DNA of 64,000 bases from Sporosarcina koreensis (lineage in GTDB: Bacteria; Bacillota; Bacilli; Bacillales_A; Planococcaceae), in NCBI RefSeq assembly GCF_000826145.2, contig NZ_LN651334.1, forward strand, positions 1,080-65,079, given 5' to 3'. Shown here one piece after another: positions 9,183 to 38,060 of this stretch (positions are counted from its first letter, which is position 1; each line of letters starts with the position of its first letter). Under the pieces are notes generated by a model. It did not search any database and was not told the DNA's origin. It saw nothing but the letters and a program-made list of their open reading frames with translations. Position numbers and translations under genes: made by a program.

Positions 9183-10466
9183 ATGACAACATCGACTCTC
9201 AATACACCTGACTACGCGGCCCAGCTGGAGGCGCGCTATGCCGCCGCCAGCCGGCGGGACGAATTTTACATACAGGACGGCACCATCTATTTCGACGGCA
9301 ACTCCCTCGGCCTGTTGTCCAAGCGGGCGGAATCTTCACTGCTTGCGGTGCTCGACACATGGAAGCGGCATGGCATCGACGGCTGGACGCAGGGGGAGCG
9401 GCCGTGGTTCCATCTGTCTGAACAGATCGGCGCGATGATGGCCCCATTAATCGGCGCAAATCCGTCCTCGGTCATTGCGACAGGCTCGACAACGTCCAAC
9501 CTTCACCAGCTGCTCGCGACGTTCTTCAAGCCGGCGGACGGGCGTACGAAGATCCTGGCCGATGAACTGAACTTCCCGACGGATCTGTACGCGATCCAGA
9601 GCCAGCTGCGGCTGCATGGGCTCGATCCGGAGGAACACCTCATCCGCGTGGAAAGCCGGGACGGCCAGACACTGAAGACGGAGGACATCATCGAGACGAT
9701 GACGGACGACACGGCGATCGTCATCCTGTCAGGTGTACTGTACCGAAGCGGTCAGGTGCTCGACATGGAACGCATCACAAAAGCGGCCCATGACCGCGGC
9801 ATCCTCGCCGGCTATGACCTGTGCCACTCGATCGGCTCGGTGCCGCATCACCTCGACGACTGGAATGCGGACTTCGCCTTCTGGTGTAATTACAAACATC
9901 TGAACGGCGGACCGGGCGCAACGGGCGGCTTGTACGTCAACGAACGCCATTTCGGCACAGCGCCGGGTCTCGCCGGCTGGTTCGGTTCCGACAAGGAGCG
10001 GCAGTTCGACATGGAGCATACGTTCACACCCGCCGCGGACGCCGGCGCGCTCCAGATGGGGACCCCGCATCTGCTCAGTTCAGCGCCGCTCATCGGCTCT
10101 TTGGAACTTCTAGATGAAGTGGGGATTCCGGCGATCCGGGAACGGTCGCTCGCCCTGACAGGCTACCTGCTGGATCTCGTGAATACGGAACTCGGAGATC
10201 ACGGGTTCACCGCAGCGAGTCCGGCTGACGCAGCGGAACGGGGAGGGCATGTGTTCCTCGTCCACCCGGAAGCAGCACGCATCTGCAAGGCACTGAAAGC
10301 GAACGGACTCATCCCGGACTTCCGGGCGCCGAACGGCATCCGGCTCGCACCGGTCGCTTTGTATAACACGTTCGAAGAGGTCCGGCAGGCGGTCTTGCTG
10401 CTGAAACGGATCATGGTTGAAGAACAGTACAAGCAGTTCGAAAACAAACGGGACGTGGTCGCATGA
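9183..10466 (+). CDS. kynU: Kynureninase
   Basis: This 427-residue PLP enzyme cleaves kynurenine to anthranilate and alanine. The PLP lysine is in [20 protein letters not shown], and family motifs include GNSLGL and LCHSIGS. AAAGGAGCGGATC precedes the ATG. It heads the operon kynU-kynA-transporter-kynB for tryptophan-to-anthranilate catabolism. Its stop overlaps the first possible kynA start (ATGA). The enzyme is intact although the dioxygenase that feeds the pathway is split. Confidence 0.96.
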
Positions 10467-10639
10467 CGGAAAGGGGTGCAGGGATGAACAAAGGGATATC
10501 CGATCTGAATCTCGACCATGAAGCGATCCATACGGACTTCAAGAAGGACATGACCTACGGGGAATACTTGAATCTCGACAAGATCCTGTCGGCGCAGGAA
10601 CGGCTGTCAGGCCACCACGACGAAATGCTATTTATATAA
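10463..10639 (+). pseudogene. kynA: kynA 5' fragment (tryptophan 2,3-dioxygenase), cut by the mobile element
   Basis: The fragment encodes the N-terminal 57 residues of tryptophan 2,3-dioxygenase, with the family segments [19 protein letters not shown] and HHDEMLF. At the attachment core it reads into element DNA and stops two codons later (ATA TAA). Two starts are possible: the ATG overlapping the kynU stop, or the ATG at 10484, which has AAAGGGG 7 nt upstream and is favoured. Joining at CTATTTAT to the downstream fragment gives [15 protein letters not shown], the normal family sequence. The gene is therefore interrupted rather than decayed. Confidence 0.93.
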
Positions 10640-10652
10640 CTTCGGCTATTTT
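10628..10652. promoter_or_regulatory. attL (core plus element-side arm)
   Basis: The core CTATTTAT is followed after 2 nt by the arm AACTTCGGCTATTTT. Its reverse complement matches the arm at the other end (AAATTAGTCGTAGCT) at 11 of 15 positions. This gives the imperfect dyad around a central core expected of a serine-integrase attP. Confidence 0.85.
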
Positions 10653-10667
10653 GGTACAGTATAGCAC

Positions 10668-10694
10668 AAAAAAAGACGACCTAATTAGGCCGTC
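10668..10694 (-). terminator. Terminator at the left end of the element
   Basis: Read on the minus strand, GACGGCCTAATTAGGTCGTC is followed by seven T. It ends the restriction-enzyme operon and overlaps the stop codon of the 30-aa gene. Confidence 0.85.
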
Positions 10695-10777
10695 CTCAAA
10701 AGGTATTCTGCTATATGTGTAGGATTCAGTTCTTGTTTGATAACTACTTTTACTTTGAGCTCTTTTTTCTTAGCCAT
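10685..10777 (-). CDS. Small basic protein of 30 aa, function unknown
   Basis: The peptide starts MAKKKELKVKVVIKQ and ends in AEYLLRTA. GAGGTGACAG gives a good ribosome site before ATG. It lies downstream of the restriction-modification gene and ends inside the terminator. The lysine-rich N-terminus suggests a nucleic-acid or membrane contact, but I do not recognise a family. It was found by reading the intergenic DNA. Confidence 0.6.
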   Translation of the reverse strand: MAKKKELKVKVVIKQELNPTHIAEYLLRTA

Positions 10778-10847
10778 ATCTGTCACCTCGATGAAGTTAT
10801 ATCGAGGAAATTTCATTTGTAAATTTAATTGTGAGTTAGAAGTTGCT

Positions 10848-13577
10848 TTATTTTTTATTTGAATTTATTTTTTTAGTAATTTCTCTTTGGTATAGCTTTA
10901 TTAAGTGTTTAATTCTCTCATCAACTGAATCAAACGGTTCTTTTCTGTAAAGTGTATCAATTAGTTTATCTAATTTTTGATGAGATACTTGTAAGTCTGT
11001 CGGAAGTATTTTCCCATATAAATCTCGAAGACTGTTCCCTTCATTAAAGTACTTTTCTCTGATGTCTAGAATCTGTTGAGACAAAGATTCAACTTTTCTT
11101 TCTTCCTCCTTATTCAGCCTAGGAAATGGAAAAGTATTATAGCAAAGTGTATTAGAGTACCTAAAGTCGTCTTTGAGTTTTCCAGAAACAAGATTAATCC
11201 ATGCAGTATGCATCTTAGACTCGAGAAAACCGAACAAAACTAAAGATGCGTCTGCAATTTGAAAAGCGGCATCACTGACAATTACATCAGGACCAAAATA
11301 GCCCATCGGTACATATTCCCTAGCACCTGAGCTAGTTCTAGGAATAATTAACACATCTTTGCGCCAATATCTGTCTCGTTTAAAAAGCAATGGTGTATTG
11401 CTTAATTTTTGATCTTCTTTAGCTACTGTTAATCGAAACTTTTTAACATTTTCTACTCGTTGTTGAATCTCAGGCATTTTAATCAACATGTTAAACGGAA
11501 TGTCTTTAACGTAGATTATATACCTTTCATACTTATTAGGTTCTAATAACTCTTGGCTTCCGTAATAAGGATGAATATAGTCTTCCATAATGTTGTATTT
11601 AGTGAGTATTTCTTTCTTTTCCTCCACCGAAATAATATATTGTTGGTTTTCTAAAGGAAGACTTCCCAAGGTCATTGGGGGATAACCCGAAATCTGCTTC
11701 CTAGTGTTAGGATCAATTAAAAGAAATGGTTCATCTATAAGATATTCATTAATTGAATTTGTAGTTTGCATTGTTGGCAAGTCTTTAACATTTGCATAAC
11801 TAAATAGTTGTTTCTTCTGCACATTTTGTCGTGTAAAGCCAATTATGACCACCATTACATTCGCCTCGTTATCCCAAGCAAAAGTTTGATGTGCAAAATG
11901 AATACTAATATCCATAGCTCTTAGCTTTCTCCAAAGAATAGTGGCTTGAATTCCTTGAGAAATTGAGTTAGTAGAAACTAATGCAGTTTTCATTTGAGGA
12001 TTAATCATCATCATCTCAGAAGCCTTAATAAACCATCCACCTACAAAGTCTAAATTTAATATTCCTTTCATTTTTGGTGATACAGATTTTAATTGCGCCT
12101 TATGGGTCGGTGTCATTTTTTTTGCTCCTATAAATGGAGGATTGCCAAAGATAAAATTCAAGTCTTTTGCCGAAATTACTTCTTCCCAATCAATTTCTAA
12201 AGCATTTGCATTAACTATATTTGCACCTGCATGTAGAGGAAGCCTTAAGAACAGCCTTCCGAATAACTCACTAGCTTCGACATTCATTAAGTGATCCATT
12301 AACCATAAACCAACTTTTGATATGGATACCGCGTACGGTACAATTTCAATTCCATAAAATTGCGATACCTCAACCTTAATCAGTTCTAAAACATCAAAAA
12401 CTACTTGTCCTTCGTTTATTTCGTCAATTACTTCATGTTCTAATCTTCGTAACTCGCGATATGCAACAATCAAGAAATTCCCTGAACCACATGCAGGATC
12501 TAGGAATTTCAAATTTGAAAGTTTGTGATGAAACTCATTTAACCTTCCGCTTCTACCATGTTTTAAAGTACAAATGTGGTCAAATTCATTTCTTAAATCT
12601 TCTAAAAACAAGCTATTAACAACCTTCATGATGTTAATTTCAGATGTATAATGTGCACCTAAATTCGATCTACGGGTATCATCCATCGCAGCTTCGAACA
12701 TTGAACCAAAAATTACAGGAGAAATACGACTCCAATCTAGAGTTGAAGCTTGGATTAGATGCGACCGGATTTCCGTAGTTAATGGTAGTCCAATTTTTTG
12801 AGGGCGTTCAAATAACCCCCCGTTTATATAGGGAAACTCTTTTAATATGTCTGATTGATACCGATCTTTCTCTGGAGTGTTTAATACTTCGAATAAGGCA
12901 CCAAGTTTGTCAACAAGATCAGTTCCATCTTCTTTAGTTTCATCTTTTAAATACTTTCTGAATAAGCCTTTCTTAAAAATACCGCTATCATCTGAAAATA
13001 AACAAAATACCACTCGTGTCATAAGTAAATCAGAGTAATTTCTCGGATAATTAGAATCTAACAATTGTTTATGGAGCTGTTCCATCATTCTAGCAGCATC
13101 TTCGTTTACAGGATTCTTGGGAACTGAGGCCTCAATGTGTTTTCCAACTAAAAAACCAAAGTGATCAATGTATTTTGGTAAGTCAGTTACAAGAAAGTCC
13201 CATATACCTTCATTGGCCAGATCATATAAACGTATGCGTTCAAAATTACAGATCAATATATACCTTGGTAAATCCTCATTAGATAAGTTCATAACATAAC
13301 GGTATGCTTGTGACTTAGCCTTCTCTAAGTTTTTTCCTCTAGACTTCATTTCTATAAGTAATGTTCCATTTAACAAGTGATCCACAAAGTTAGTAGAACC
13401 ATCAATATTTACACGCCATTCAAAACCTATTTTAATTTTTTGGTATGGAACACCGAAAAGTTCAAGGAAGTCTCGAACCCACATTTGACTCTGCTGCTTT
13501 TCATCACTATCATTCTCATGTTCCTTAACAAATTGTAATGATTTATTCAATAATTCATTACGACTTTCTATTAACAT
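10848..13577 (-). CDS. MmeI/YeeA-type single-chain restriction-modification enzyme
   Basis: This 909-residue protein fuses nuclease and adenine-N6 methyltransferase. The N-terminus has a PD-(D/E)xK-like site (D66, E76-M-K78) as in MmeI-family Type IIL enzymes. A helical spacer follows, then the methyltransferase with DPACGSGNF (motif I, about 359) and NPPF (motif IV, about 478), then a target-recognition and C-terminal region. Such enzymes methylate host sites on one strand and cut unmodified DNA without a separate subunit. It probably protects the element or its host against other phages. All key motifs are intact. Specificity cannot be read from sequence. Confidence 0.85.
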   Translation of the reverse strand: MLIESRNELLNKSLQFVKEHENDSDEKQQSQMWVRDFLELFGVPYQKIKIGFEWRVNIDGSTNFVDHLLNGTLLIEMKSRGKNLEKAKSQAYRYVMNLSNEDLPRYILICNFERIRLYDLANEGIWDFLVTDLPKYIDHFGFLVGKHIEASVPKNPVNEDAARMMEQLHKQLLDSNYPRNYSDLLMTRVVFCLFSDDSGIFKKGLFRKYLKDETKEDGTDLVDKLGALFEVLNTPEKDRYQSDILKEFPYINGGLFERPQKIGLPLTTEIRSHLIQASTLDWSRISPVIFGSMFEAAMDDTRRSNLGAHYTSEINIMKVVNSLFLEDLRNEFDHICTLKHGRSGRLNEFHHKLSNLKFLDPACGSGNFLIVAYRELRRLEHEVIDEINEGQVVFDVLELIKVEVSQFYGIEIVPYAVSISKVGLWLMDHLMNVEASELFGRLFLRLPLHAGANIVNANALEIDWEEVISAKDLNFIFGNPPFIGAKKMTPTHKAQLKSVSPKMKGILNLDFVGGWFIKASEMMMINPQMKTALVSTNSISQGIQATILWRKLRAMDISIHFAHQTFAWDNEANVMVVIIGFTRQNVQKKQLFSYANVKDLPTMQTTNSINEYLIDEPFLLIDPNTRKQISGYPPMTLGSLPLENQQYIISVEEKKEILTKYNIMEDYIHPYYGSQELLEPNKYERYIIYVKDIPFNMLIKMPEIQQRVENVKKFRLTVAKEDQKLSNTPLLFKRDRYWRKDVLIIPRTSSGAREYVPMGYFGPDVIVSDAAFQIADASLVLFGFLESKMHTAWINLVSGKLKDDFRYSNTLCYNTFPFPRLNKEEERKVESLSQQILDIREKYFNEGNSLRDLYGKILPTDLQVSHQKLDKLIDTLYRKEPFDSVDERIKHLIKLYQREITKKINSNKK

Positions 13578-13720
13578 TTGAACTCCCCCTATATAGCTAT
13601 AAGTTCTATATAGATCTATAATACCATGAAAATATAGTCAAAAATATGTCTCTACTGTATATTTCCTGAAAAAAGAAAAAGTAAAAAGAAGTATTATCGC
13701 TCTTATGTTAGATAAATAAA

Positions 13721-13747
13721 AAAAACGCTCAAATTGAGCGTTTTTAA
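13721..13747. terminator. Bidirectional hairpin terminator
   Basis: AAAAACGCTCAAATTGAGCGTTTTT has A- and T-runs on the two sides. It separates the RadC/50-aa transcript from the restriction gene. Confidence 0.85.
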
Positions 13748-13767
13748 CTGAGTTTAAGTAGTGATAG

Positions 13768-13920
13768 TCAAGAGTACTTGTTTATGACTCTAAGCTGCTC
13801 AATAGCAGTATGAGCTTGCAGTATTTCTTTATTGAACTCTGCTGATTGCAAGATGCCAGCGACTTTGAATACTAACTCCGACATTGTATTCTTGCCTAAT
13901 TTGATTTTCTTAATTGTCAT
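13768..13920 (-). CDS. Small protein of 50 aa, function unknown
   Basis: The protein begins MTIKKIKLGKNTMSELVFKV and ends in EQLRVINKYS; it is probably helical. AGGAAGTGTAAC precedes the ATG. It lies between radC and a terminator and is likely co-transcribed with radC. No family is recognised; short conserved genes beside radC are common in mobile elements. Confidence 0.55.
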   Translation of the reverse strand: MTIKKIKLGKNTMSELVFKVAGILQSAEFNKEILQAHTAIEQLRVINKYS

Positions 13921-13977
13921 ATGTTACACTTCCTTTATAGTTAGTAGTTGGACACCTTTGTGATTCGTTGGTAGCGA

Positions 13978-14613
13978 TCAAAGGTGTCCTTTGTCTTTAA
14001 AGCTAAGAAAGCTTGTACCATTTACAATTAAATGGTCTAACAGCTCAATCCCCATTATTTCCCCTACGTCTCTCAATCTTCTCGTTACTTCAATATCTTC
14101 ACTGCTCGGATTCAAATCTGAACTTGGATGATTATGAGCAATAATTATTGAAGCTGCATTATACTTCAAAGCCATTCTGTACAACTCTCTAGGATGCACA
14201 ATACTTGTATTCAAAGTTCCCTTGAAGATTTCCTCATAGTGAAGGATTCGATTTTTCGTGTCCAAGAATACAGCAGCAAATACCTCACGTTGCTCGTAGC
14301 TGATCTTTAGAAAAGGAATGACCGCATCTTTCGGAGATTTTATCTGGAACGTCTTTTCAATACGTTCGTCTGCAAGCTGTCTAACTAAAGAGAGGGCAGC
14401 AACTACTCTTTTTGAAGATACTGGACTGATACCAAGCTCAACAAAATCAGCTACTGAAAAATCAAGAAGCTGCTGTAAACGATATTTAGAGATTTTGTTG
14501 ATCTCTTCTTTTTCTGCTTTTGGACCAACAAGCATCGTCAGAGAATCCTCAACGCTAATACTTTCCTTGCTGTACTGACTGAACTTTTCCTTAACTTCAC
14601 TGTAAATCGTCAT
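13978..14613 (-). CDS. radC: RadC-like JAB/MPN-domain protein
   Basis: This protein of about 211 residues has the C-terminal RadC domain (JAB metalloprotease fold) with the metal motif AHNHPSSDLNPSSEDIEVTRRL. The N-terminal part (about 1-95) is the usual helical RadC region but diverged. RadC homologues are typical cargo of integrative elements; a direct repair role was withdrawn for E. coli RadC, so its function is open. AGGAGG lies one base before the first ATG (14619) and 7 nt before the second, so the second was chosen. Confidence 0.85.
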   Translation of the reverse strand: MTIYSEVKEKFSQYSKESISVEDSLTMLVGPKAEKEEINKISKYRLQQLLDFSVADFVELGISPVSSKRVVAALSLVRQLADERIEKTFQIKSPKDAVIPFLKISYEQREVFAAVFLDTKNRILHYEEIFKGTLNTSIVHPRELYRMALKYNAASIIIAHNHPSSDLNPSSEDIEVTRRLRDVGEIMGIELLDHLIVNGTSFLSFKDKGHL

Positions 14614-15029
14614 TTTCATTCCTCCTAATCAATAATGCGAGAAATCAATTTGAGGATTAAAGAGGCTTCCAAACGAGGAATCAAGTCTACTTCATAAAAT
14701 CGAAAGAGTTTAAAACGTGGTATTAAATTTCTCACTAAATCAATTATATATCGAACATTTGTTCGAGTACACTCTTTTATGTAACTATATATTTCGGAAT
14801 TAGATGAGAATAGCTTTCTGAGGCCACACAAAGCTCTCTACTCAGTGAAAACACCCTCTCTAATATAAATACTCATTCAAGTGATAAAACGTCGTGTAAA
14901 GCCTTGTATGAGATTTTAAAAAATAAGCTAAGAATATTCCCAGTAAATACAGTGATTTAACTAATCATTTGTGAAACAGGAATAAATTTGGTAGTGTTAG
15001 AAATAAGCTAAAATTTGGAGGAATTGAAA

Positions 15030-15755
15030 ATGAAAAAAGCAGCTATGGTATTAGGATCAGTGGTAATCGGAGGAACCCTTTTGACAAGCTTCACAGGATT
15101 GGGAAATCTTGATTTGAATGCAAACGCTAGTGAAACGTTGAAGAACCCACTTGATGAAACTACTAATTTAGTGGATGAACAAGGACGAGAATTTGTTTAT
15201 GACATCAATGGGATAAAGTACTATATAGACACCGAGAAGAATAAAAACGATGAAGAAGAAACGACAAACATTGATTCATTAACTATGGATGGTGAAGAAT
15301 CTTCAGAAGTAAGTAAGACTTCTCATGTATCCACTTTATCCGATGAGATTTATCGTAACGATCAAGAAGCATATGATGAAGTCCGAGGAGATCTGTTTAA
15401 GATTCAAGAGAACAATGTCATCACAAAAGAAAACGCTGAATACGACAGCTTCATTGATGTATTAGAAGATATATATCCATTGATCGATCCTTGGAAAAAC
15501 CCTAGTGGATATGATGAATCTGTTATTGGACCAGAAGAAGAAAACGAATATTATGATGCAGCAATTAAATACATTGCTTATGCTAAATACTTCGAAGATG
15601 AAATTGAAGAAAACGGATGGTCTGATGAAGTAAAGAAATCGATGCGCTATAATGTTCAAGTTGTAAACCAAGATCATCAGACTGATTATGGAACTCGTCT
15701 TCATTTTGGATCTGGAGTATTTGGAGTGCTCGCTCTTCATGACATGGGAAAATGA
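15030..15755 (+). CDS. Secreted acidic protein, function unknown
   Basis: This 241-residue protein has a signal peptide (MKKAAMVLGSVVIGGTLL, cleavage near ANA-SE). The mature chain is Glu/Asp-rich with a segment of low complexity (NKNDEEETTNIDS). TTTGGAGG lies 9 nt upstream of the ATG. It is one of only two plus-strand genes in the element besides the ends, has its own terminator, and is followed by an unusual G-free tract. It could be a lysogenic-conversion surface or exported factor. No family is recognised. Confidence 0.75.
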   Translation: MKKAAMVLGSVVIGGTLLTSFTGLGNLDLNANASETLKNPLDETTNLVDEQGREFVYDINGIKYYIDTEKNKNDEEETTNIDSLTMDGEESSEVSKTSHVSTLSDEIYRNDQEAYDEVRGDLFKIQENNVITKENAEYDSFIDVLEDIYPLIDPWKNPSGYDESVIGPEEENEYYDAAIKYIAYAKYFEDEIEENGWSDEVKKSMRYNVQVVNQDHQTDYGTRLHFGSGVFGVLALHDMGK

Positions 15756-15797
15756 TTTAGCTTATGACTACAATCAAAACTGAATACCAACTCTTGA

Positions 15798-15824
15798 GGT
15801 TCATTCGTACAGAATGAGCCTTTT
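15798..15824 (+). terminator. Terminator of the secreted-protein gene
   Basis: GGTTCATTC and GAATGAGCC form a 9-bp stem with one G-T pair, followed by TTTT. Confidence 0.7.
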
Positions 15825-15986
15825 ACCTTTCAACACCATTTGGGTCATTTGGTCCCGACAATAAAACCTCACCTCCCAGTGTTATTTAGGTATCTCTCCA
15901 CTTTTTTATTTTTTTATATAGGCGATACTTATACCACCACCAACTCTATTCACATTCACACCACTCTCAATCCTCATTGACCCTTG

Positions 15987-16114
15987 AACAACAACCCTTA
16001 CTACTACTACCACTTCCTCAACCAACATCAATCACCATCCCATCTACTATCATCTACTACCTACAACACCTATCATCAACTCCTACTACATACTACTACC
16101 AACATACACCAACT
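15987..16114. other. 128-nt tract without any G on the plus strand
   Basis: The tract consists only of C, A and T, with CTA and CAT/CAC repeats. It is the centre of a G-poor stretch of about 15930-16180 inside an 849-bp gap between genes. The rest of the gap (to 16604) is AT-rich and shows no gene. A C-rich, G-poor, unstructured transcript is typical of a Rho-loading site; a strand-biased origin or transfer site is the other option. Confidence 0.75.
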
Positions 16115-16604
16115 GAGTTATGATCTCTCCAACTCACATCACCATCTCACTTATGATACTCTCCTGTGAACATCATCTAAACAATATCAATCGTGGATGC
16201 ATCTACATCATATGCTCTATGCTTACTATCAAAAGTTATTTATATAATGAGAATGATGAATCCCCCCATAACTAACCATCACAACTCAATATGATGTGCT
16301 ATCCTATGCTCATATCTGCAATACAGACAAGCTCTTTAAACTGGTATATCAGTAAGCTTATTAAACGGTATTAACTATAATTTTAGCTGCATAAAATATT
16401 CGATTGTTTTCTATATGAGCGTAAGCATTATATCTGTAAGTCTGTAATATGTAAGGCAGCAAATTATCGTTATTATAAGTTTCTGCTACTGATTTACAAA
16501 TTCAAAAAGTAATATAGAATAGGATCGAATAGCTATGAAGGATATGTGTGTATGGAAGTTTAAACTGCCATGCAAATAAATCTGTATGTATAAAATCTGC
16601 ATTA

Positions 16605-16847
16605 TTAGCATGCAGATTTATACTTAGAAGCAACCTTTCTAACAAAGCTATGACTAATAGGCTGAATACCATTGCTCTCCAAAGAAAAATTGATTCGCTC
16701 TGTAACTTTCAATAAAGCCAAATTTCGATCGTTTTGTTTCAAATAATCTAAGCAATATTTCACCAAATTGGTTGCAACAATGGATCGCAACTGATTACGA
16801 GTGATTTTGTCTTTCAAATCTAATAGTTCGTCTATTTTTTGTTTCAT
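16605..16847 (-). CDS. Hypothetical protein of 80 aa in the structural-gene cluster
   Basis: The protein starts MKQKIDELLDLKDKITRNQL, is helical, basic and has no membrane segment. CGGAGGTAAGATC gives a good ribosome site. It lies just downstream of the tail tube gene, where phages place tail assembly chaperones, but I do not recognise it as one. Confidence 0.6.
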   Translation of the reverse strand: MKQKIDELLDLKDKITRNQLRSIVATNLVKYCLDYLKQNDRNLALLKVTERINFSLESNGIQPISHSFVRKVASKYKSAC

Positions 16848-16905
16848 GATCTTACCTCCGATTTACTTAGTATTAAGAGACTAGCCAAAGCTAATCTCTA
16901 ATTTG

Positions 16906-17331
16906 TCATACTCCTGGTACAACTGGTGCAGCTGTAGTAGTAAGAGCTCCATTTCCTTGAAGAGCGATGGACCAAGTAACGAGGTCATCGTATGGTGCTT
17001 CAAGTGAGAAGTCGGTAATCGTTGCGTTTCCTTCGTATTTAGTACCGGAAGGAAGCTCAAGATATACATCTACGTTCTCAGAAGCTAGGAACGCTGTTTC
17101 GAGAATTTTGTACGCTTCATCAGATTCAATAAACGCTCCATCGCAGTCGATAGACCATTCTTTAAATCCTTGAATCGATTCTTTCCAGAACCCTTCAGTG
17201 TCTTTCGATGTTGCATCAATCGATTCGGCAGATCGGTTCAATGTAGCATTTCGCTGACCAGCAAGAACCTTTCCACTCATTGCTTCCTTGATAAACAATT
17301 TAACTTTCATACCTGAAACTTTTCCAGACAT
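16906..17331 (-). CDS. Phage major tail (tube) protein, TP901-1 family
   Basis: This 141-residue protein matches the TP901-1 major tail protein type. Characteristic parts are KVLAGQRNATLNRSAESID at the N-terminus, WSIDCDGAF in the middle and the C-terminal YDDLVTWSIALQGNGAL. In siphophages it forms the tail tube. A ribosome site (AAGGAGGAATC) precedes it. It directly follows the capsid gene; the portal, connectors, tape measure and tail tip that normally surround it are missing. Confidence 0.85.
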   Translation of the reverse strand: MSGKVSGMKVKLFIKEAMSGKVLAGQRNATLNRSAESIDATSKDTEGFWKESIQGFKEWSIDCDGAFIESDEAYKILETAFLASENVDVYLELPSGTKYEGNATITDFSLEAPYDDLVTWSIALQGNGALTTTAAPVVPGV

Positions 17332-17394
17332 TCAAGATTCCTCCTTAATAAAGTAAAAAGAGACCAGAGTTTATCTGGCCTCAACTAACAATTC

Positions 17395-18942
17395 TTATGC
17401 GGTTACGACTAGCTTGGTAAGAGCATCAGAGTTATAAACTGCTCCATCCATATATGCTTCAACTAAGAAGCCTACAGAGCCATTGAGCGCTTTCTCGGTG
17501 TCTTGAATTTGAATCAGTTCTACTCCCTTTTTAAGAGAAATAGCATATCCATCAAAGAGACTGCCAACAATACAAGGAGTTTCACCAATAGCCATACCAG
17601 CTTCAAGAGAAGAAGTAATCACTACTGGCAAACCGAAGAGTGTGTAAGTTGGTTTCCCATTAACGATACCATTCTGTACATAGTAATGACCCGCAGCGTC
17701 ACGTAGCTTTGCAACACGATTGAAGAATGGACGAGACATGATGTATTGAGAGTTTTGAAGATATTCTGGATGAATATTCAAATTCATATCTAATAGAAGA
17801 TCTTGCAGTTCATCATCTGTCGAAGCAGCGGAGAGCTCGATCTTATTTACCGTTTGATCTGGCACAATTCCTTTAAATTCATCTGTACGTGTTCCTCGTA
17901 AAATGGACTGCTCAATTGCTTTGAATGTACGCTTAGCAAGTTGAGAAGGAATATACGATGCCATATTGACAGCAGAATCGTGAATAAACTGCCTAGAGAT
18001 AGTAATAAGAGCGCCTACTCGTTTTTGATCTAATTCTACATGTCCAAGATGAAGCTGGCCTTCAACTAAGTTTTTACCTTCACCAACAAAGGCTCCATCT
18101 TCAGTAGCTGTTTCTCGTGGAATCTTTAGACTTCCAGCTGATGTAGGAAACTTCCGAGCCAATGAAAAGACGGTTGAGCTTTCATCTAGTTTCTCTACAA
18201 TCACGTCTGCTACCGATTCAGGAATAACAGAAACATTTCCTGCAGTTGTATTCATTTCACGATTTTCAACATTAAATTTCAGCCGTTCATTGAACTCACG
18301 TGTTTCTTGCTCTTTCTTAGATTCAGCTACCTTGTAGTTGTTGTATGTGTGGACAGTTTTCATTTTGTTTTCTCTCTCCTCTTTAGTAGTTGTATTATTC
18401 AGCTCAGGAATTTTGACGTTTTCAATAAGGTTAATTCCTCGAGCAGCAATTGTCGATTGAGAGTAAGCAGGATTCTTCACTACGCTTACTTCGAAAAGTT
18501 CTAGCTCTTCAATTGTCCTTTCTTTAAGATCTCGAGAAATTTTTTTCCAAGAATCTTTAATCGTTCTAAAGCCAAACGACATATTTTTAAAAAGACCAGA
18601 CTTGATCATTGTGTAAGCATCTTTGCCCCATGAAGTTGGAGTAATAGTAGCTTCCATGTATAGACCTTTCTCGTCCTCTCGAAGAATTAGCGACGAGTTT
18701 TTCGTCGATGCAAGTAGCTGTCTATTGTCATGTTCAGCCAAGAAATCAATATCTCGATTAGCGTGTTGAGAGTTTTTGATAGCACGAGAGAATGCTCCTT
18801 TTGAGATTTTTTCTTTGAATTTATTTGCTGATCCAAGTACTTCACTATGCATGTCAGTTAGATTCACATAGCCAGAAACTTTCATATTTCCATCCGACTC
18901 AGAAGTAAAGTATGTTTCAGCAGTTCTTAATTCCATTTTCAT
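17395..18942 (-). CDS. Fused HK97-type prohead protease and major capsid protein
   Basis: The single 515-residue chain joins two proteins that are usually separate. Residues about 1-175 are a prohead protease (GAFSRAIKN, FLAEHDNRQLLAS with the catalytic His, and later ELFEVSVVKNPAY). From about 194 follows an HK97-fold capsid protein (VSVIPESVADVIVEKL, then GALITISRQFIHDS, then YTLFGLPVVI). An internal ATG at 18363 begins the capsid half but its GAGGAG is 12 nt away, so separate translation is possible. The ATG at 18942 follows GAAGGAG; the track's longer TTG start lacks support. Confidence 0.88.
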   Translation of the reverse strand: MKMELRTAETYFTSESDGNMKVSGYVNLTDMHSEVLGSANKFKEKISKGAFSRAIKNSQHANRDIDFLAEHDNRQLLASTKNSSLILREDEKGLYMEATITPTSWGKDAYTMIKSGLFKNMSFGFRTIKDSWKKISRDLKERTIEELELFEVSVVKNPAYSQSTIAARGINLIENVKIPELNNTTTKEERENKMKTVHTYNNYKVAESKKEQETREFNERLKFNVENREMNTTAGNVSVIPESVADVIVEKLDESSTVFSLARKFPTSAGSLKIPRETATEDGAFVGEGKNLVEGQLHLGHVELDQKRVGALITISRQFIHDSAVNMASYIPSQLAKRTFKAIEQSILRGTRTDEFKGIVPDQTVNKIELSAASTDDELQDLLLDMNLNIHPEYLQNSQYIMSRPFFNRVAKLRDAAGHYYVQNGIVNGKPTYTLFGLPVVITSSLEAGMAIGETPCIVGSLFDGYAISLKKGVELIQIQDTEKALNGSVGFLVEAYMDGAVYNSDALTKLVVTA

Positions 18943-19046
18943 GATTTCAATATCTCCTTCAGAATAGTTTTCTAAGATTTTGCTGATATTCAGCAAAAAA
19001 AATAAGCATCCAGAAAGGATACTTATCGATAAAATATTTGTTTCGA

Positions 19047-19117
19047 TGGACTCTATAGGAATCGAACCTATGACAACATTATTGAAACTTTGCAGCTAAC
19101 CATTTAGCTATAAGTCC
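19047..19117 (-). tRNA. tRNA-like gene with degenerate anticodon arm
   Basis: On the minus strand there is an acceptor-like pairing (GGACTT with GAGTCC, one G-T), a D arm (GCTA/TAGC with AATGGT loop) and a perfect T arm (ATAGG-TTCGATT-CCTAT). The anticodon arm pairs poorly: spacing gives a loop GTTTCAA (anticodon TTC, Glu) without a stem, or a shifted loop TTCAATA. No isotype can be assigned. It may be a decayed or unusual phage tRNA. The remainder of 18943-19343 shows no gene. Confidence 0.55.
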
Positions 19118-19343
19118 GTATATGGAGGTAACCTAGAAACTGTGACTTCAATCTCGTATAAGGATAGAAGAATAAAATCATAGTTTCTAAGTTCAATGTT
19201 CAACTCTGCATTGCTGAACACAGTCTATGGAAAACAACAAAGAAAAAAGAAATCGAACAAACAAATATGTTAGAGAGAGACAATGGATTATATTTTACCT
19301 CTCTCTAATAATATATATATGTGAACGCTGACAAATGTACGTA

Positions 19344-19679
19344 TTATTGGCACTTTTGTGCTAATATTTTTTCTTTTTCTTTTCTATACTGCATTATCAG
19401 TTCAATCAATTGATCAGACTTCATTTTCGGAAAACGATACCAGTTCTTTGATAGTGCTCTGTCAAACTTACTAGATATTTTGTGCTGTCTAAAGTGTCGA
19501 TAGAAGGAAGAGACTTCACTGTCTAAATCATCAACAGAGAACATCATTAAGCAACTGAGGCCAGTACATTCAATGTCAAAAAATTCTTCTTTCCAATTCT
19601 CATAGTCTAAAGCAGCTAAAGCTATTTCACTTTTCCATTGATGCTTAAAAACACATATAACGCCTTGTCTCTTGAACAC
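19344..19679 (-). CDS. Hypothetical protein of 111 aa
   Basis: The protein starts with GTG (MFKRQGVICVFKHQWKSEIA) after AGGAAAGGATT. It is soluble and mixed charge with a helical Lys/Glu-rich C-terminus (MQYRKEKEKILAQKCQ). It is flanked by the tRNA-like gene and a palindrome-rich intergenic region. No family recognised. Confidence 0.6.
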   Translation of the reverse strand: MFKRQGVICVFKHQWKSEIALAALDYENWKEEFFDIECTGLSCLMMFSVDDLDSEVSSFYRHFRQHKISSKFDRALSKNWYRFPKMKSDQLIELIMQYRKEKEKILAQKCQ

Positions 19680-19858
19680 AATAAGAATCCTTTCCTAGAT
19701 TACTCTCACCACAAAAGCATTATATCTGCACGATTTAAAACGTAAACTATTTTATGTAAAAAGAAAAAGCTGCTCTTCAGCGACTCTAATAAACTGATCG
19801 TATTTAAGCTGCTTGTTTACAAGCGTTAAATAAAACTTACTATTACTAAGTCAATTGT

Positions 19859-20009
19859 TTGCGTAAAACACGCCGTGTTTTTGCGCAATAAATATATTTA
19901 TTTATTTTATATTATATTATTTAGTGTATCAATTTAGCTCATACGGAACCCTTTTGATATATCAAAAAGGATCATATGGAGCCATTTTGTACAAGCTAAA
20001 ATTTTAGCT
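19859..20009. other. AT-rich region with three palindromes, candidate replication origin
   Basis: This lies within a 365-bp gene-free stretch. TTGCGTAAAACACG pairs with CGTGTTTTTGCGCAA (one bulge), then comes a pure A/T run (about 19889-19922), a 22-bp palindrome centred on TTTTGATATATCAAAA, and the perfect 16-bp palindrome AGCTAAAATTTTAGCT. AT-rich DNA with dyads beside a winged-helix protein gene resembles origins of phage satellites and plasmids. A regulatory role is equally possible. Confidence 0.5.
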
Positions 20010-20015
20010 ATAATG

Positions 20016-20044
20016 CAAAAAAAATAGGAGCAATTACGCTCCTA
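20016..20044 (-). terminator. Terminator of the downstream replication-like gene
   Basis: On the minus strand TAGGAGCGTAATTGCTCCTA is followed by eight T. Confidence 0.85.
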
Positions 20045-20650
20045 TCAACGAATATCGTAGCTTTTTAAGATCTCATACTCAGTAGTTTGTTCTTTTAAGT
20101 TATTGCCTTTGTCAGTGATCCTTATCCATCCTTTTTCTTGTAAAGAATCAATGCATTTCGTTAGAGTGTTAAAGTTTTTTACGCCACTATAATGAGCTAT
20201 TGTTGAACGACCAATTCTTAGTCGCTTTAAATTCTTTTGTTTATAGATAGTAGAATTTTTAATGAAACTAAACAAAATCAAAAATACACGAATTTCATTT
20301 GAATCAAGTTGAAGAAGCTCGTCTATCTCAAATTCGTACAAGAAAGAGAAGTTAGTTAGATCATAAGGAAACTGTATGACAAACCTCTCATTAGATGAAT
20401 ACTCTGCTGGAATAAAATCGATAGCTAAATGATTCTCCATGCTTTCATCTATCATCTTATAAACTGTTGATTTGGCGACTTTCTTGCTTACATTGCTTGT
20501 TGTAGCGAGTTCATTAATAGTAAATGAAGACCGACGATTTCCATTCATTAATTTAATGATTCCTAAAACAACTTTACTGTCGTAGTTTTTTATTAGTGTT
20601 TTACCATAATAGAATTTGTAATCGTTTAGATATGATAGTTGTCCATTCAT
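20045..20650 (-). CDS. Winged-helix DNA-binding protein, probably replication or regulation
   Basis: This 201-residue protein has two helix-turn-helix-like segments: INELATTSNVSKKVAKSTVY (about 45-65) and a second near SLQEKGWIRITDKG at the C-terminus. It is diverged from known initiators but has the tandem winged-helix style of Gram-positive plasmid and phage replication proteins. GGAG lies about 7 nt before the chosen ATG; the upstream GTG overlaps that site and is less likely. It is next to the palindrome-rich candidate origin. Confidence 0.6.
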   Translation of the reverse strand: MNGQLSYLNDYKFYYGKTLIKNYDSKVVLGIIKLMNGNRRSSFTINELATTSNVSKKVAKSTVYKMIDESMENHLAIDFIPAEYSSNERFVIQFPYDLTNFSFLYEFEIDELLQLDSNEIRVFLILFSFIKNSTIYKQKNLKRLRIGRSTIAHYSGVKNFNTLTKCIDSLQEKGWIRITDKGNNLKEQTTEYEILKSYDIR

Positions 20651-20824
20651 TCTGTTCACTCCATTTGATTTATTTGAATCTATTATTTCTGCTCAATGAA
20701 AAACGTAAATGGAATGAAGTGAATTTTTTAAAATATTTCTGGACAGAGTAATGTGAAAACATATTTTCCTTCTACCAACCCTAAAATGGTATACTTGCGC
20801 TACAAACTTCCTAGGAGAATCACA

Positions 20825-21622
20825 ATGTCAAATACGAAAAGAAAATTAAGCAAGAGAAAAAGGGTGCTCACGGAATTAAACAGGTTAGATGAACACGCAT
20901 CAAAGCTTTTATTTGTACACTATTCTTGCGAGAGCTTCTATGACTTAGTAGATACTGGACGGTCGGCTCGAATTACTTCGATTGCAGCAAGATATTTCGA
21001 AACAGGACAATCAGTGAGTTTTTCAATTCATACAACTGCTGAAAAAGAAAATAAATTAGACAGTATTGAATCACACTATGATGAACTAGAGAAAATAATG
21101 TTAGAAGACTTCTTTGACTTTGTTTGTCGACATGATAACTACTACTGGATTCATTGGAATATGAGAGATATAAGCTATGGCTTTCAAGCAATAAATCATC
21201 GTTTTGAGGTATTAGGAGGGACACCGAAGATCATTGCCGATGACAAGAAATTTGATTTAGCTGATAAATTAAAAGTCGTCTTTGGTAGCAGCTATATTGG
21301 TCATCCTCGCTTTGAAATGTTAATTAAGATGAACGAGATATCAGACAAAGATTTTTTGAAGGGCAAAGAAGAAGCGGATGCATTTGAGAATAGAGAATAT
21401 ATCAAATTACATCATTCTACTTTGAGAAAAGTAAATGTAATGCATGAAATTTTTGATAAGGTGCTAGACAAAAATCTAAAAACAAATTCAAAGAAAAGAG
21501 AAGTTTATGGGCTTTCCCTTCAAGGAAGATATGAAATGGTCAGGGAGCACTGGTTATTTAACTTGTTCCTTCTTGTCTTGGGCGGAATAATCTCACAAGT
21601 AATTACATGGTTATGGAAGTAA
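20825..21622 (+). CDS. Orphan protein with C-terminal membrane anchor, possible defence gene
   Basis: This 265-residue protein has a soluble body and one C-terminal hydrophobic segment (LFNLFLLVLGGIISQVITWLW). Distinct segments are LFVHYSCESFYDL, ITSIAARYF, IHWNMRD and HPRFEMLIKMNEI. CTAGGAGAATCAC supports the ATG; an upstream GTG does not have a site. It has its own plus-strand transcription in an element otherwise transcribed leftward, which is how accessory cargo is often placed. I recall similar hypothetical proteins but no established function; the defence idea is inference. Confidence 0.7.
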   Translation: MSNTKRKLSKRKRVLTELNRLDEHASKLLFVHYSCESFYDLVDTGRSARITSIAARYFETGQSVSFSIHTTAEKENKLDSIESHYDELEKIMLEDFFDFVCRHDNYYWIHWNMRDISYGFQAINHRFEVLGGTPKIIADDKKFDLADKLKVVFGSSYIGHPRFEMLIKMNEISDKDFLKGKEEADAFENREYIKLHHSTLRKVNVMHEIFDKVLDKNLKTNSKKREVYGLSLQGRYEMVREHWLFNLFLLVLGGIISQVITWLWK

Positions 21623-21673
21623 TTAAAATTAGAAGAGGAAGCTTAATCGATAAAAAAGACCAAGCAATTAAGC

Positions 21674-21862
21674 TTAGTCTAGTTCGAATAGTATTCCTTC
21701 AATTTCAACTGCAGAAGTTAAATAACCACCAATCCTTTTTAGCTCCCAATAAATTTCATAATCAAGTTCTTCTGCATAAGTTATAAAATCTACATCTCCG
21801 TTTAACATTGCGTACTCCATTAAACTTTCTTTAGCTGATAACATACCGATTAAGTACCCCAT
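21674..21862 (-). CDS. Hypothetical acidic protein of 62 aa
   Basis: The protein starts MGYLIGMLSAKESLMEYAML and is very acidic, ending IEGILFELD. AAAGGAGCTG lies 8 nt before ATG. It is convergent with the membrane-anchored protein; a 9-bp inverted repeat AAGCTTAAT/ATTAAGCTT sits between them. Small acidic phage proteins sometimes mimic DNA or inhibit host enzymes; nothing specific can be claimed. Confidence 0.6.
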   Translation of the reverse strand: MGYLIGMLSAKESLMEYAMLNGDVDFITYAEELDYEIYWELKRIGGYLTSAVEIEGILFELD

Positions 21863-22038
21863 AATACAACAGCTCCTTTTCTAAGCTGTTATATCCTTAT
21901 CTGTGAATTTGTAAAGAGAAATAAAATATCAATTTTATGACTCTGCGTTGTCTTTTAAGAGCTGTGAAAGAGCGAAATGAGGATATATATTAAAACTCGT
22001 TTAAAGACTCATACAGAGCCTTCTGGAGCTTTCTAAAG

Positions 22039-22830
22039 TTACTCCTGATCCTCTAGCCAATCATAAATAGGAACACCTCTCTTTTGTGCACGTTTTATCA
22101 GGAGATCTTTCTTTCGGAGTGAACCATTTCTAACCATACTGTTATCAAGAGCATTTTGAAGAGCTGCTTTAAAATATCCACCGAAGTTTTGGATATCTGG
22201 ATTCAAATTTACTTCATTAAGCACTCGTAAGCACACTTCTTTGCTAAGTCCTTTTTTCATGAACTCAAAAATTAACGAGTCAATTGTCTTTTGCTTTGTT
22301 AACAAATTGTTGTCAACATAAGTATTTATTTCTTTTTCATTTTTTTCTTTTTTGTTTTTTTTAATAGAGGAACCTTTTTGTACATACTTGCCTTGCTCAT
22401 TTGTATATTCAAGTTTTGCTCTTTTGTCATAACTAGGAGACTCCGACCTATTATTATCAATACGTTGCAGATCTGACATTTTGTCAGAACTAGGATTGCA
22501 AATCATTTCTTGAATCTTGCTCGTTAAATGAAAATGTTTCTTTGCAGGAACCCCTCTTATGACGGTAGTAATAAGTCCGAATGACTCAAGTTCCTTGATA
22601 GCTTTAGTTTGCTGCCTATAAGTCAATGAGGTCTCTTCTTGTATAACATCTGCAGTTAAAAAGAAGTAATCATCACCTTCAATATGAATTAGCATATTCT
22701 TGCTCCCAAAACTCTCATAAGAGCTTGCAAGTTGACCATACAGTATAGCTGCATTAGTCGATACTTCTCTGGCAATCAGTTTAGAGTACATAACAAATCC
22801 TTTACCAGATATTAAACTAAGCAATTCCAC
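22039..22830 (-). CDS. Plasmid/phage-type replication protein with N-terminal winged helix
   Basis: This 263-residue protein has an N-terminal winged-helix domain (about 20-105) with the pattern seen in RepA_N or DnaD-like initiators: ILYGQLASSYES, DDYFFLTADVIQEETSLTYRQ, then KELESFGLITT. A Lys/Glu-rich linker (IKKNKKEKNEKEIN) leads to a C-terminal domain (KGLSKEVCLRVLNEVNLNP, FGGYFKAALQNALDNS). GTG follows AAAGGAG by 9 nt; an internal ATG 39 nt later also has AAAGGA. The leader is overlapped by a candidate antisense RNA whose -35 lies on this ribosome site, the layout of plasmid copy control. Confidence 0.7.
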   Translation of the reverse strand: MELLSLISGKGFVMYSKLIAREVSTNAAILYGQLASSYESFGSKNMLIHIEGDDYFFLTADVIQEETSLTYRQQTKAIKELESFGLITTVIRGVPAKKHFHLTSKIQEMICNPSSDKMSDLQRIDNNRSESPSYDKRAKLEYTNEQGKYVQKGSSIKKNKKEKNEKEINTYVDNNLLTKQKTIDSLIFEFMKKGLSKEVCLRVLNEVNLNPDIQNFGGYFKAALQNALDNSMVRNGSLRKKDLLIKRAQKRGVPIYDWLEDQE

Positions 22831-22843
22831 CAGACTCTTCTCC

Positions 22844-22872
22844 TTTAAAGACAGAGAAAATTCTGCTACAAT
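22844..22872 (+). promoter_or_regulatory. Promoter of the antisense RNA
   Basis: TTTAAA, a 17-bp spacer and TACAAT point away from the replication gene. The -35 overlaps the reverse complement of that gene's ribosome site AAAGGAG. Confidence 0.6.
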
Positions 22873-22878
22873 AAAAAA

Positions 22879-22957
22879 ATAGCAGAAGAATCTCTGCTTG
22901 TTGTATTAAGAGATGGCTGAGCCGCGAAACTCTGTTGCCATCTCTTATTTTTATTTT
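22879..22957 (+). ncRNA. Candidate antisense (countertranscribed) RNA to the replication-gene leader
   Basis: The predicted transcript of about 77 nt has a 5' hairpin (AGCAGA/TCTGCT) and a 3' intrinsic terminator: AAGAGATGGC and GCCATCTCTT pair perfectly and are followed by ATTTTTATTTT. It is fully complementary to the 5' leader of the divergently read replication mRNA. Short two-hairpin RNAs of this kind set copy number in Gram-positive plasmids. No plus-strand gene exists here to explain the terminator otherwise. Confidence 0.6.
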
Positions 22958-22981
22958 AACAAAGTCTGAATATTTCGTAAA
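22953..22981 (-). promoter_or_regulatory. Promoter of the replication gene
   Basis: On the minus strand TTTACG, a 17-bp spacer and TAAAAT lie just after the recombinase stop codon. Initiation near 22946 would give a leader of about 115 nt. Confidence 0.55.
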
Positions 22982-22986
22982 CTTTA

Positions 22987-24423
22987 TTATTCTTTGAAGA
23001 AAATATCGATCTCAAGTTCATCTTCTGTCCGGAAGTATTCGATACGTTCAATTATATTGAGAAGTATTCTGTTCTGTTCATCAGTAGGTTTGTTTTGCAA
23101 GTCAGTAAGCTGTTCGAGCATCTTTTCAATTCTCTCAGTATCGTTAGAAACTGACCTCTGAATCAAAATTTCTTCAATATCAGATAGTCTTTGTTCAATT
23201 GCTTTTATTTGAGTTGCAAGATCAGTGTCTTTTTCTTTGAATGCTAATTCATTAATCGTTTCGTTTAGCAGTAGATCAAGCAAACGCTCTTTTTGCTTGA
23301 TAGTGGACTGTAAATTCTTATCGAGAACTTTCTTTTCAGACCGGAGTTTCTCAGAGCTGCCATCGACTCCGCCTGTATATAATTCACTAAGCTTATTTTG
23401 TATGACAGGAATATGCTTTTCGATCTCCGTATATATAGAAGGAAGGACAAGACTCAGAGCACTTCCTTTATTTGGGCAAGGTTCTCCTTCTACATAATGC
23501 CTACACTTGTTGATGTTAGTATATCGCTTAGTTTTAACACTGCTACCTCTCGTTATCTGCATTTTTCTTTTGCAGTACTTGCAGTACACAAGTTTATCGA
23601 CTGGAGATAATACTTTCGATATTCTTTCGTTAAACCTTTTTCTCTTGTCTAAGATTTCTCTAACTTTATAGAAGTCTTCGTAGGAAATAATAGCAGGATG
23701 AGCATTCTTAACATATACTTCTTCATCGAATTTGTTGCTCTTGAAGTTTACTTCACCTAAGTAAGCTCGATAATCAAACATCATAGATATCGTTCTATCA
23801 TGAAAGACCTTACCGTTTCTTGTACGTATACCTTCTTGGTACACCTTTCTGTAGATCTGAGTTAATGAAAATCCTTCGATAACCATATCAAACATTTTAC
23901 GTACTACAGCTGCTTCTTCTTCAACAATCTCTAGTTTGAGCGTCTCAGGATTTTTTCGATATCCATAAGGAGTGGAGTTCAGCCATTTACCCTGGCGAGC
24001 TGATTGAAGTCTGCCTAAGTGCATTTTCTTCGCAGTTTCTTTATAAGCAAGCTGATTAAACGTACCTTTAAAGATGCTCATCATTTCGTTCATCTGATTA
24101 GAAGGATCAATAATATCGTTGTCCAATACAGCATGGATAACGACCTGATTTTCTGTTAAGATTTCAAAGAGTTCGAGCTGCTGCTTTAGATTACGAGTTA
24201 AACGAGAGAGCTCCATGATAACTATTGCATCATATTGACCAGTTTTTACATAGCTGATCAACTCTATGTAGCCTTTTCTTTCATCGTCAACAGAGCTGCC
24301 GATCTCTTCAAGATACCTGTAAGTAAAGTCGTTTTTTGTACAGTAATCAATCATTTCAGTCTTGTTCTTTTGAAGTTCTTCTTCTGTACCTCTTGATTTA
24401 CGATTGTAGATTATTGCATTCAT
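22987..24423 (-). CDS. Large serine recombinase (integrase) of the element
   Basis: This 478-residue recombinase has the resolvase catalytic domain with nucleophile Ser10 in YNRKS and the ELSRLTRN segment, then the recombinase domain (TPYGYRKNPETLKLEIVEEE). A zinc ribbon follows with CKYC and a second Cys pair in CRHYVEGEPC, and then a C-terminal coiled coil. Such enzymes perform directional attP x attB recombination; excision needs a small directionality factor, not identified here. AGGAGG precedes the ATG. Location at the element end next to attR is typical. Confidence 0.95.
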   Translation of the reverse strand: MNAIIYNRKSRGTEEELQKNKTEMIDYCTKNDFTYRYLEEIGSSVDDERKGYIELISYVKTGQYDAIVIMELSRLTRNLKQQLELFEILTENQVVIHAVLDNDIIDPSNQMNEMMSIFKGTFNQLAYKETAKKMHLGRLQSARQGKWLNSTPYGYRKNPETLKLEIVEEEAAVVRKMFDMVIEGFSLTQIYRKVYQEGIRTRNGKVFHDRTISMMFDYRAYLGEVNFKSNKFDEEVYVKNAHPAIISYEDFYKVREILDKRKRFNERISKVLSPVDKLVYCKYCKRKMQITRGSSVKTKRYTNINKCRHYVEGEPCPNKGSALSLVLPSIYTEIEKHIPVIQNKLSELYTGGVDGSSEKLRSEKKVLDKNLQSTIKQKERLLDLLLNETINELAFKEKDTDLATQIKAIEQRLSDIEEILIQRSVSNDTERIEKMLEQLTDLQNKPTDEQNRILLNIIERIEYFRTEDELEIDIFFKE

Positions 24424-24446
24424 GCCGATTCCTCCTACTAACTATT

Positions 24447-24461
24447 ATACAATTTTTGTAT
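24447..24461. promoter_or_regulatory. Recombinase promoter with palindromic operator-like site
   Basis: On the minus strand ATACAAAAATTGTATAAT combines a 6-bp inverted repeat (ATACAA/TTGTAT) with a consensus -10 TATAAT. This suggests repressor control of the recombinase. Confidence 0.5.
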
Positions 24462-24520
24462 CTAAATAGCCGGTAGTTTGTTCATATAACTACGGTTAAG
24501 TTGATAATCAACTAACTATC

Positions 24521-24543
24521 AAATTAGTCGTAGCTCTATTTAT
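24521..24543. promoter_or_regulatory. attR (element-side arm plus core)
   Basis: The arm AAATTAGTCGTAGCT abuts the core CTATTTAT, after which the kynA reading frame resumes. It mirrors the arm at the other end. Confidence 0.85.
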
Positions 24544-25237
24544 TATTATCCATCAAGTAAGCGAGCTGTGGATGAAGCTCACGCTGCACGAACTGACGGC
24601 AGCCATCTCGGCGATCGATGCCGGGGAGATGCAGTCGGCGTTCAAGAAACTCGCGCGCGTGACGAAGATCCAGTCGCAGATCATCCAGGCATGGGATGTG
24701 CTGTCGACGATGACACCGGCAGAGTACCTCGAATTCCGGGACGATCTCGGCAAAGCCTCCGGGTTCCAGTCGTACCAATATCGGCTCATCGAGTTCGCCC
24801 TCGGGTACAAGTCGCCGCATATCCTGAAAATCTATGAAAAGGATCCGGACGTGCATGCGATGCTCGAAACGGCGCTCGCCCAGCCGAGCCTGTATGACGT
24901 CGCCATCCGGGCGCTCAGCCGGGCCGGTCTGCCGATCAACCCCGAGCTGCTCGACCGGGACTTCCGTAAGACGTACGAGGGGGATCCAACGGTGGCGGCC
25001 GCCTGGGAGACGGTGTACCGGGACGTCGAGACCTACTGGGACCTGTACCAGCTCGCGGAGAAGCTCGTCGACGTGGAGGACTGGCTGCAGCAGTGGCGGT
25101 TCCGTCACATGAAGACCGTCGAGCGGATCATCGGCTTCAAGACAGGCACCGGGGGTTCGTCCGGCGTGAACTACTTGCGCCACGTCCTCGACCACCGGTT
25201 CTTCCCGGAGCTGTGGGAGCTGCGGACATCTTTGTAA
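24536..25237 (+). pseudogene. kynA: kynA 3' fragment (tryptophan 2,3-dioxygenase)
   Basis: The fragment encodes the C-terminal 231 residues of the heme dioxygenase that opens the indole ring of tryptophan. It starts at the core in frame ([13 protein letters not shown]) and includes [16 protein letters not shown] and the C-terminal [24 protein letters not shown]. No internal stop or frameshift is visible, so the gene would be functional after excision. In the present state the ATG at 24572 has no ribosome site, so the fragment is probably silent. Confidence 0.93.
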
Positions 25238-25262
25238 CTGGTAAATGAAAAGGAGGCGGACT

Positions 25263-37179: not shown

Positions 37180-37180
37180 G

Positions 37181-38053: not shown

Positions 38054-38060
38054 GTTTTTC

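Follow-up and report, generated by a model that had tools for sequence, protein, structure and literature searches.

The gene kynA, which encodes tryptophan dioxygenase, is split in Sporosarcina koreensis by an element of nearly 14 kb, and the locus raises the question of what kind of element this is and whether the loss of the gene is a regulated event or an accident of integration. The stretch analysed (hereafter, the window) comprises 64,000 nucleotides of contig NZ_LN651334.1 (assembly GCF_000826145.2, positions 1,080 to 65,079 of the forward strand). An earlier note on this DNA had proposed that exact excision of the element restores kynA and that tryptophan catabolism may in this way be turned on, as in active lysogeny. 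Our analysis points to a different answer, namely that the element is probably a mobile satellite-like defence island, integrated into an attB site inside kynA by its own large serine integrase, and that the loss of kynA is an incidental side effect of site choice and probably a reversible one.

Insertion site and natural empty site

The octamer CTATTTAT was found at both kynA junctions, at 10628-10635 (attL) and 24536-24543 (attR) on the plus strand, flanking an island at 10636-24543 that measures 13,900 bp between the cores and 13,908 bp when one core is counted. As sufficient evidence by itself the octamer repeat was rejected, because the window holds three copies, against a mean of 1.37 expected, and 15 of 100 shuffles reach that number. 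The boundaries were confirmed by a second genome of the same species, G061, which represents a natural empty site: the window aligned with it up to 10635 (99.8% identity) and again from 24536 (99.3%), and the two flank alignments overlap in G061 by exactly 8 bases. Moreover, rejoining the flanks across one copy of the core gave an 846-nt frame free of internal stops, which encodes 281 amino acids from ATG 10484, or 288 codons from an alternative ATG at 10463, seven codons upstream. The rejoined KynA was 100% identical to that of G061 over residues 1-281, and the two genes differed at 1 of 846 positions. Indeed, the element of about 13.9 kb, the 288-codon frame and the exact restoration of kynA, all claimed in the earlier note, were reproduced, and the empty site that it had suggested seeking in related strains exists in G061 as an intact kynA with a single CTATTTAT. 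The GC content of the island was 34.6%, against 52.8% for the remainder of the window.

In the window strain, the 5' fragment of kynA (10484-10635, plus strand) retains codons 1-50 and two bases of codon 51 and meets a stop inside the island at 10637-10639, and the 3' fragment (24544-25237, plus strand) was recognised from the rejoined frame and a family match. The core spans the codons of L49 and F50 plus two bases of that of I51, and the insertion site lies four codons ahead of the codon of H54. Counted on the alignment, H54 (the histidine of HQ) corresponds to residue 55 of structure 2nw7, which we take to be the catalytic histidine of the enzyme. It is absent from the open reading frames (ORFs) of both fragments, the 5' one stopping after L-F-I and the 3' one starting at 24572. 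These two pieces were the only kynA found when the host genome was searched whole, and while the island is resident the cell would lack an intact tryptophan dioxygenase gene. The remaining kyn operon is intact, in agreement with the earlier note, with open frames and family matches above cut-off for kynureninase (kynU, 9183-10466, TIGR01814), a sodium-dependent transporter between kynA and kynB (25245-26615, NF037979) and arylformamidase (kynB, 26637-27284, TIGR03035), all on the plus strand.

Serine integrase and attachment sites

A full-length gene beside attR (22987-24423, minus strand) encodes a large serine integrase of 478 amino acids, the type of enzyme expected from the earlier note, with resolvase (PF00239, 6.8e-20) and recombinase (PF07508, 4.3e-21) domains above cut-off, a zinc ribbon below cut-off and a match to phrog_95 (4.3e-86). 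When the island ends were joined, the resulting attP contained a dyad of 17/25 matches whose centre lies at the step from core base 5 to core base 6, and 2 of 5000 dinucleotide shuffles scored as high; outside the core, the arms matched at 11 of 15 positions, as previously claimed, with a two-base offset. The attB dyad was not significant (12/25, reached by 42% of single-base shuffles). The predicted crossover dinucleotide, TT at 24540-24541, falls on positions 2 and 3 of the Phe50 codon. Of 63 kynA loci taken from the genus, 62 contained the motif, L094 being dropped, with TT in 18 and TC in 44, and G061 alone carried the exact core. Whichever reading of the island holds, it supplies attB and attP, both exactly defined, for a divergent serine integrase.

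An AT-rich synonymous patch was also observed in kynA codons 49-56 (10628-10635 plus 24544-24559), beginning at the core. Its GC content at third codon positions (GC3) is 1/8, against 0.82 for kynA as a whole, and it is present in the window strain and G061 and absent from G045. The patch as the scar of an earlier insertion was set aside; 21 of 7036 control windows are equally AT-rich, which makes site choice the simpler account.

Relatives of the integrase were sought in 261 genomes of the family. The nearest were a split copy in G027 (two pieces at contig ends) and a truncated copy in G028, with 41-61% identity; other matches had at most 27% identity over most of the length of the integrase (among the matches listed), and no relative was found in the viral_contigs set. 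The possibility that kynA is the site of these relatives was rejected, as the copies of G027 and G028 stand at other loci and both genomes have kynA in one piece. In the corresponding stretches (L077-L079), the integrase was the only island protein with a match. One of them (L078, 7027-9801, from G027) also carries, judged by eye, a truncated-looking exonuclease III-like ORF beside a TnpB-like ORF, and the N-terminal piece of the integrase relative at the contig end.

Gene content of the island

The putative cargo and virion genes all lie on the minus strand. The defence cargo is an MmeI-type IIG restriction-modification enzyme (10848-13577) with all five MmeI Pfam domains within one protein and a PADLOC REase_MTase_IIG match of 1.2e-292. 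The virion genes recognised encode an HK97 prohead protease (S78) fused in one protein with the major capsid protein (17395-18996), assigned by domain matches, and a major tail tube protein (16906-17331; PF06199, 2.2e-29; phrog_1407, 4.4e-47). H89 and S140 of the protease, presumably its catalytic pair, are invariant in all 14 proteins compared. Neither portal, terminase, tape measure nor lysis gene was recognised in the island with Pfam and PHROGs, and tblastn of the island found nothing like the portal or terminase of phage GR1, pBS32 or the relatives described below. Furthermore, the Pfam Phage_portal family (PF04860), the only portal family searched, gave zero matches in the whole host genome, against matches in 4 of 14 genomes in the control; consequently, the genome shows no sign of a resident helper prophage of this type.

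Two proteins point to replication functions, namely a Rep3-like winged-helix protein (20045-20659, minus strand; PF01051, 7e-05; phrog_8102, 4.9e-05) and a replication-initiator or DnaD-like protein (22039-22830, minus strand; PHROGs), the latter common to related islands. The island also encodes a RadC-like JAB-domain protein (13978-14619, minus strand; PF04002, 1e-42), a 289-aa phrog_8766 protein (20753-21622, plus strand; 4.1e-79) and an 80-aa protein (16605-16847, minus strand) of a small family whose genes follow that of the capsid in related islands. A tRNA-like sequence just upstream of the capsid gene (19047-19117, minus strand) matched Rfam RF00005 at 34.7 bits and was not called by ARAGORN. 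The remaining ORFs encode a 246-aa product with a signal-peptide-like N-terminus by eye (15015-15755, plus strand), one of 111 aa (19344-19679, minus strand) and three short ones on the minus strand: a lysine-rich 30-aa product next to attL (10685-10777; no Pfam, PHROGs or phage match), one of 50 aa taken from the ORF list (13768-13920; examined with Pfam and PHROGs) and an acidic one of 62 aa (21674-21862; 13 D/E, 3 K/R), which is a candidate directionality factor. Pfam, PHROGs and tblastn identified no such factor among these three, which does not amount to absence because directionality factors are diverse.

Related capsid-carrying islands

The capsid-protease was searched in the same 261 family genomes, of which five, including the host genome, had a match at 1e-30; further loci came from the genome_contigs (two) and viral_contigs (ten) sets. 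Eleven elements were compared, namely the window island, L051, L052, L054, L055, L072-L076 and L081. Since L053 is contained letter for letter in L052, they were counted once, leaving ten distinct relatives. The comparison omits L056-L062, where the capsid is in two pieces or the locus is short or partial, and also L070, the second locus of G089. The capsid-protease is in one frame in 11/11 elements, which holds by construction because they were found through the capsid.

A portal was present in six of the 11 elements and undetected, by clustering and tblastn, in five (the window island, L051, L054, L055 and L072), and a large terminase like that of GR1 or pBS32 was undetected by tblastn in 10 of the 11 over the stretches compared. 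A large terminase occurs in L081, which may be an ordinary prophage. Large ORFs precede the capsid in the four other portal-less islands, helicase-like in L054, L055 and L072 and unassigned in L051. When 14 capsids were placed in a midpoint-rooted tree, those of the five portal-less islands formed a group with a support of 85/89, below the mark of the tool for a firm branch, and the branch of the window capsid was 0.52 long, against a median of 0.31.

A rep gene cluster is common to seven of the ten relatives (not L074, L075 and L076), from several genera. Strong defence matches were found in five relatives, comprising Lamassu LmuB in L051 and L072, HEC-05 in L053, DRT in L054 and a type I/IIG system in L073.

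Satellite-like island or decayed prophage

Taken together, the gene content and the relatives suggest a variant of capsid-carrying satellite that is without recognised portal and terminase. In such an element, the integrase would recombine attP with attB to give attL and attR, and a directionality factor, either its own or phage-supplied, would allow excision and exact restoration of kynA. A helper phage would supply the portal, the terminase and most of the tail, the contribution of the island being the capsid-protease, the tail-tube protein and the restriction enzyme, and restriction would be the benefit. If this is true, capsid-carrying satellites include forms without portal and terminase, in which the defence gene is an exchangeable module and the integrase class has been exchanged too. 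Our literature search returned no title or abstract opening on portal-less capsid-carrying satellites.

Several points weigh against a satellite. Its induction, packaging and transfer are predictions from the gene content, and the tail tube, the two Rep-like genes, the tRNA-like stretch and the unassigned ORFs would be compatible with a decayed prophage as well. The window island has a serine integrase where nine of the ten relatives have a tyrosine-type one (PF00589; the 12-kb contig L076 is the remaining one), and it lacks every gene of the HNH cluster of the relatives as well as all the clustered genes located ahead of their capsids. Moreover, the ORFs tested in the other five relatives gave weak defence matches or none, with a PD-DExK nuclease model at 8e-12 in L055, candidate PDC-S11 at 2.5e-13 in L074, and marginal matches or none in L075, L076 and L081.

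A decayed prophage remnant, unable to leave and with kynA permanently lost in the strain, is an unlikely explanation that nevertheless accounts for part of these data. It agrees with a virion module reduced to capsid-protease and tail tube, with the portal, terminase and directionality factor all unrecognised, and with long gene-poor stretches in the island. Against it, the capsid, tail tube, integrase, restriction-modification and RadC genes are long open frames, the protease retains H89 and S140, and four further portal-less islands group with the window capsid, albeit short of the firm mark. A portal-less layout that is shared points to a form that is being maintained, not to decay confined to this island, and together with the open frames and the conserved protease residues it leads us, with moderate confidence and on the basis of sequence comparison, to favour a maintained satellite form over a dying prophage. 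A bolder version of the satellite reading, in which a portal- and terminase-less lineage that retains the fused protease-capsid, joined in this strain by a tail-tube protein, builds or poisons the heads of GR1-like phages while carrying exchangeable defence genes, and in this host doubles as a reversible tryptophan off-switch only where Phe50 is encoded by TTT, is in our view distinctly improbable.

Interruption of kynA as a possible genetic switch

According to the active lysogeny hypothesis, the island acts as a genetic switch that leaves when the cell has to break down tryptophan, with kynA restored in some cells. The exact restoration of the frame and the open integrase frame are consistent with it, as are the undecayed kynA halves, with 1/846 DNA differences and zero amino-acid differences from G061, and the precedents of spsM, sigK and yabG described in two reports (PMC4191935, PMC10747680). 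However, exact restoration is not specific to a switch, because any conservative site-specific insertion gives it. Likewise, the undecayed state of kynA is equally explained by a recent insertion, given flanks 99.3-99.8% identical to G061, and decay is thus uninformative here because the insertion is too recent. Moreover, no directionality factor was recognised, whereas in SPbeta the timing of excision is governed by sprB, likely such a factor (PMC4191935).

The distribution of the insert also speaks against a switch. kynA was surveyed in 68 genomes of the genus, 64 with a match, and in a class sample of 398 genomes, 159 with a match. An insert-split kynA was found in 1 of the 64 genus genomes, that of the window strain, and a second case was not seen among the matches listed for the 159 genomes of the class sample. 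Even within the species, the insert does not accompany kynA, the site of G061 being empty. Occurrence in a single genome would still be compatible with a switch, since yin in yabG is likewise unique to one strain (PMC10747680), and none of the findings argues against excision as such. Overall, a switch seems very unlikely, and the earlier proposal that excision turns on tryptophan catabolism was not upheld, the insert being a singleton without a recognised directionality factor. If excision is regulated, the question whether ordinary catabolic genes, too, come under lysogenic switches could be tested cleanly at this locus.

The same survey led us to reject kynA as a recurrent integration target, as only the gene of the window is insert-split among the matches listed. 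In G060 and G573, kynA consists of adjacent overlapping pieces, a frameshift-like state; that of G060 (G060:C1:678018-678832, two overlapping frames) reflects either a sequencing error or another loss of KynA in the genus, independent of the first. Eight further genomes with two kynA matches carry distant homologues, each in one frame, and the one weak match each of G580 and G449 also represents distant homologues. A limited literature search found no report of an insert in kynA.

Concerning the genes downstream of the insert, pattern matching found three promoter-like sites in 24380-25300, against 0.6 expected. One of them (24481-24508, plus strand, 9/12) lies inside the right end of the island and faces the 3' fragment of kynA and, beyond it, the transporter gene and kynB, so an outward promoter at this end is possible, and the insert may, but need not, abolish expression of the downstream kyn genes. 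At the left end, no promoter-like site was found by pattern search, and a terminator-like hairpin (10672-10697, minus strand) was matched, one of three such sites in 10300-11000, against 0.5 expected. Elsewhere in the window, two sigma-70-family genes stand about 4 kb apart (36544-41804), with a zinc-finger anti-sigma-like ORF between them (39543-40379, minus strand), and their neighbouring genes have a lower GC3 than the remaining window.

Possible plasmid-like origin or assembly artefact

The Rep3-like and DnaD-like proteins could also denote an integrative plasmid or phage-plasmid-like element that acquired phage genes, and the capsid relatives indeed include the 84-kb plasmid of B. subtilis NCIB 3610 (48.5% identity) as well as phage GR1 (54.9%). 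However, rep and capsid genes co-occur in seven of the ten relatives, across several genera, and five relatives have strong defence matches, which leaves this origin with very little probability. An assembly chimera is practically discounted, for although the host assembly consists of five contigs and is 93% complete, the boundaries match exactly a site shared with G061 and an attP dyad that adjoins the integrase gene.

Comparison with known systems

The satellite-like island in kynA shares features with several systems, beginning with the inserts that interrupt host genes. SPbeta in spsM, skin in sigK and yin in yabG are likewise inserts within a reading frame, with a serine-type recombinase and exact restoration of the gene (PMC4191935, PMC10747680). 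In contrast with them, the target of the window island is a metabolic gene, its excision is predicted from sequence, and no directionality factor was recognised. A further likeness is to the cyanobacterial fdxN element, since in NCBIfam the integrase matches best to XisF, the recombinase of that excised element; at 85 bits against a cut-off of 375, however, the integrase is outside this family. The cyanobacterial nifD, fdxN and hupL elements already make the restoration of metabolic genes a known idea.

Among free phages, Geobacillus phage GR1 comes closest to the island, with 82.7% identity in the tail tube and the capsid identity given above, and GR1 and the NCIB 3610 plasmid are likely the kind of source from which the virion genes came. 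In both, the protease and the capsid have separate genes, located beside those for terminase, portal, connector and tail, whereas the two are fused in the window island.

Capsid-forming phage-inducible chromosomal islands (cf-PICIs) encode portal and packaging genes. Two reports were drawn on for the comparison with them (PMC10803314, PMC11389934), the former of which describes elements of about 14 kb on average with their own capsid in Bacillaceae, among others (PMC10803314). The island in kynA differs from cf-PICIs in having no recognised portal or terminase and in carrying a tail-tube gene and a serine integrase, but it resembles them in being integrated, in its size of about 14 kb and in its own integrase and capsid, and like them it may depend on a helper phage.

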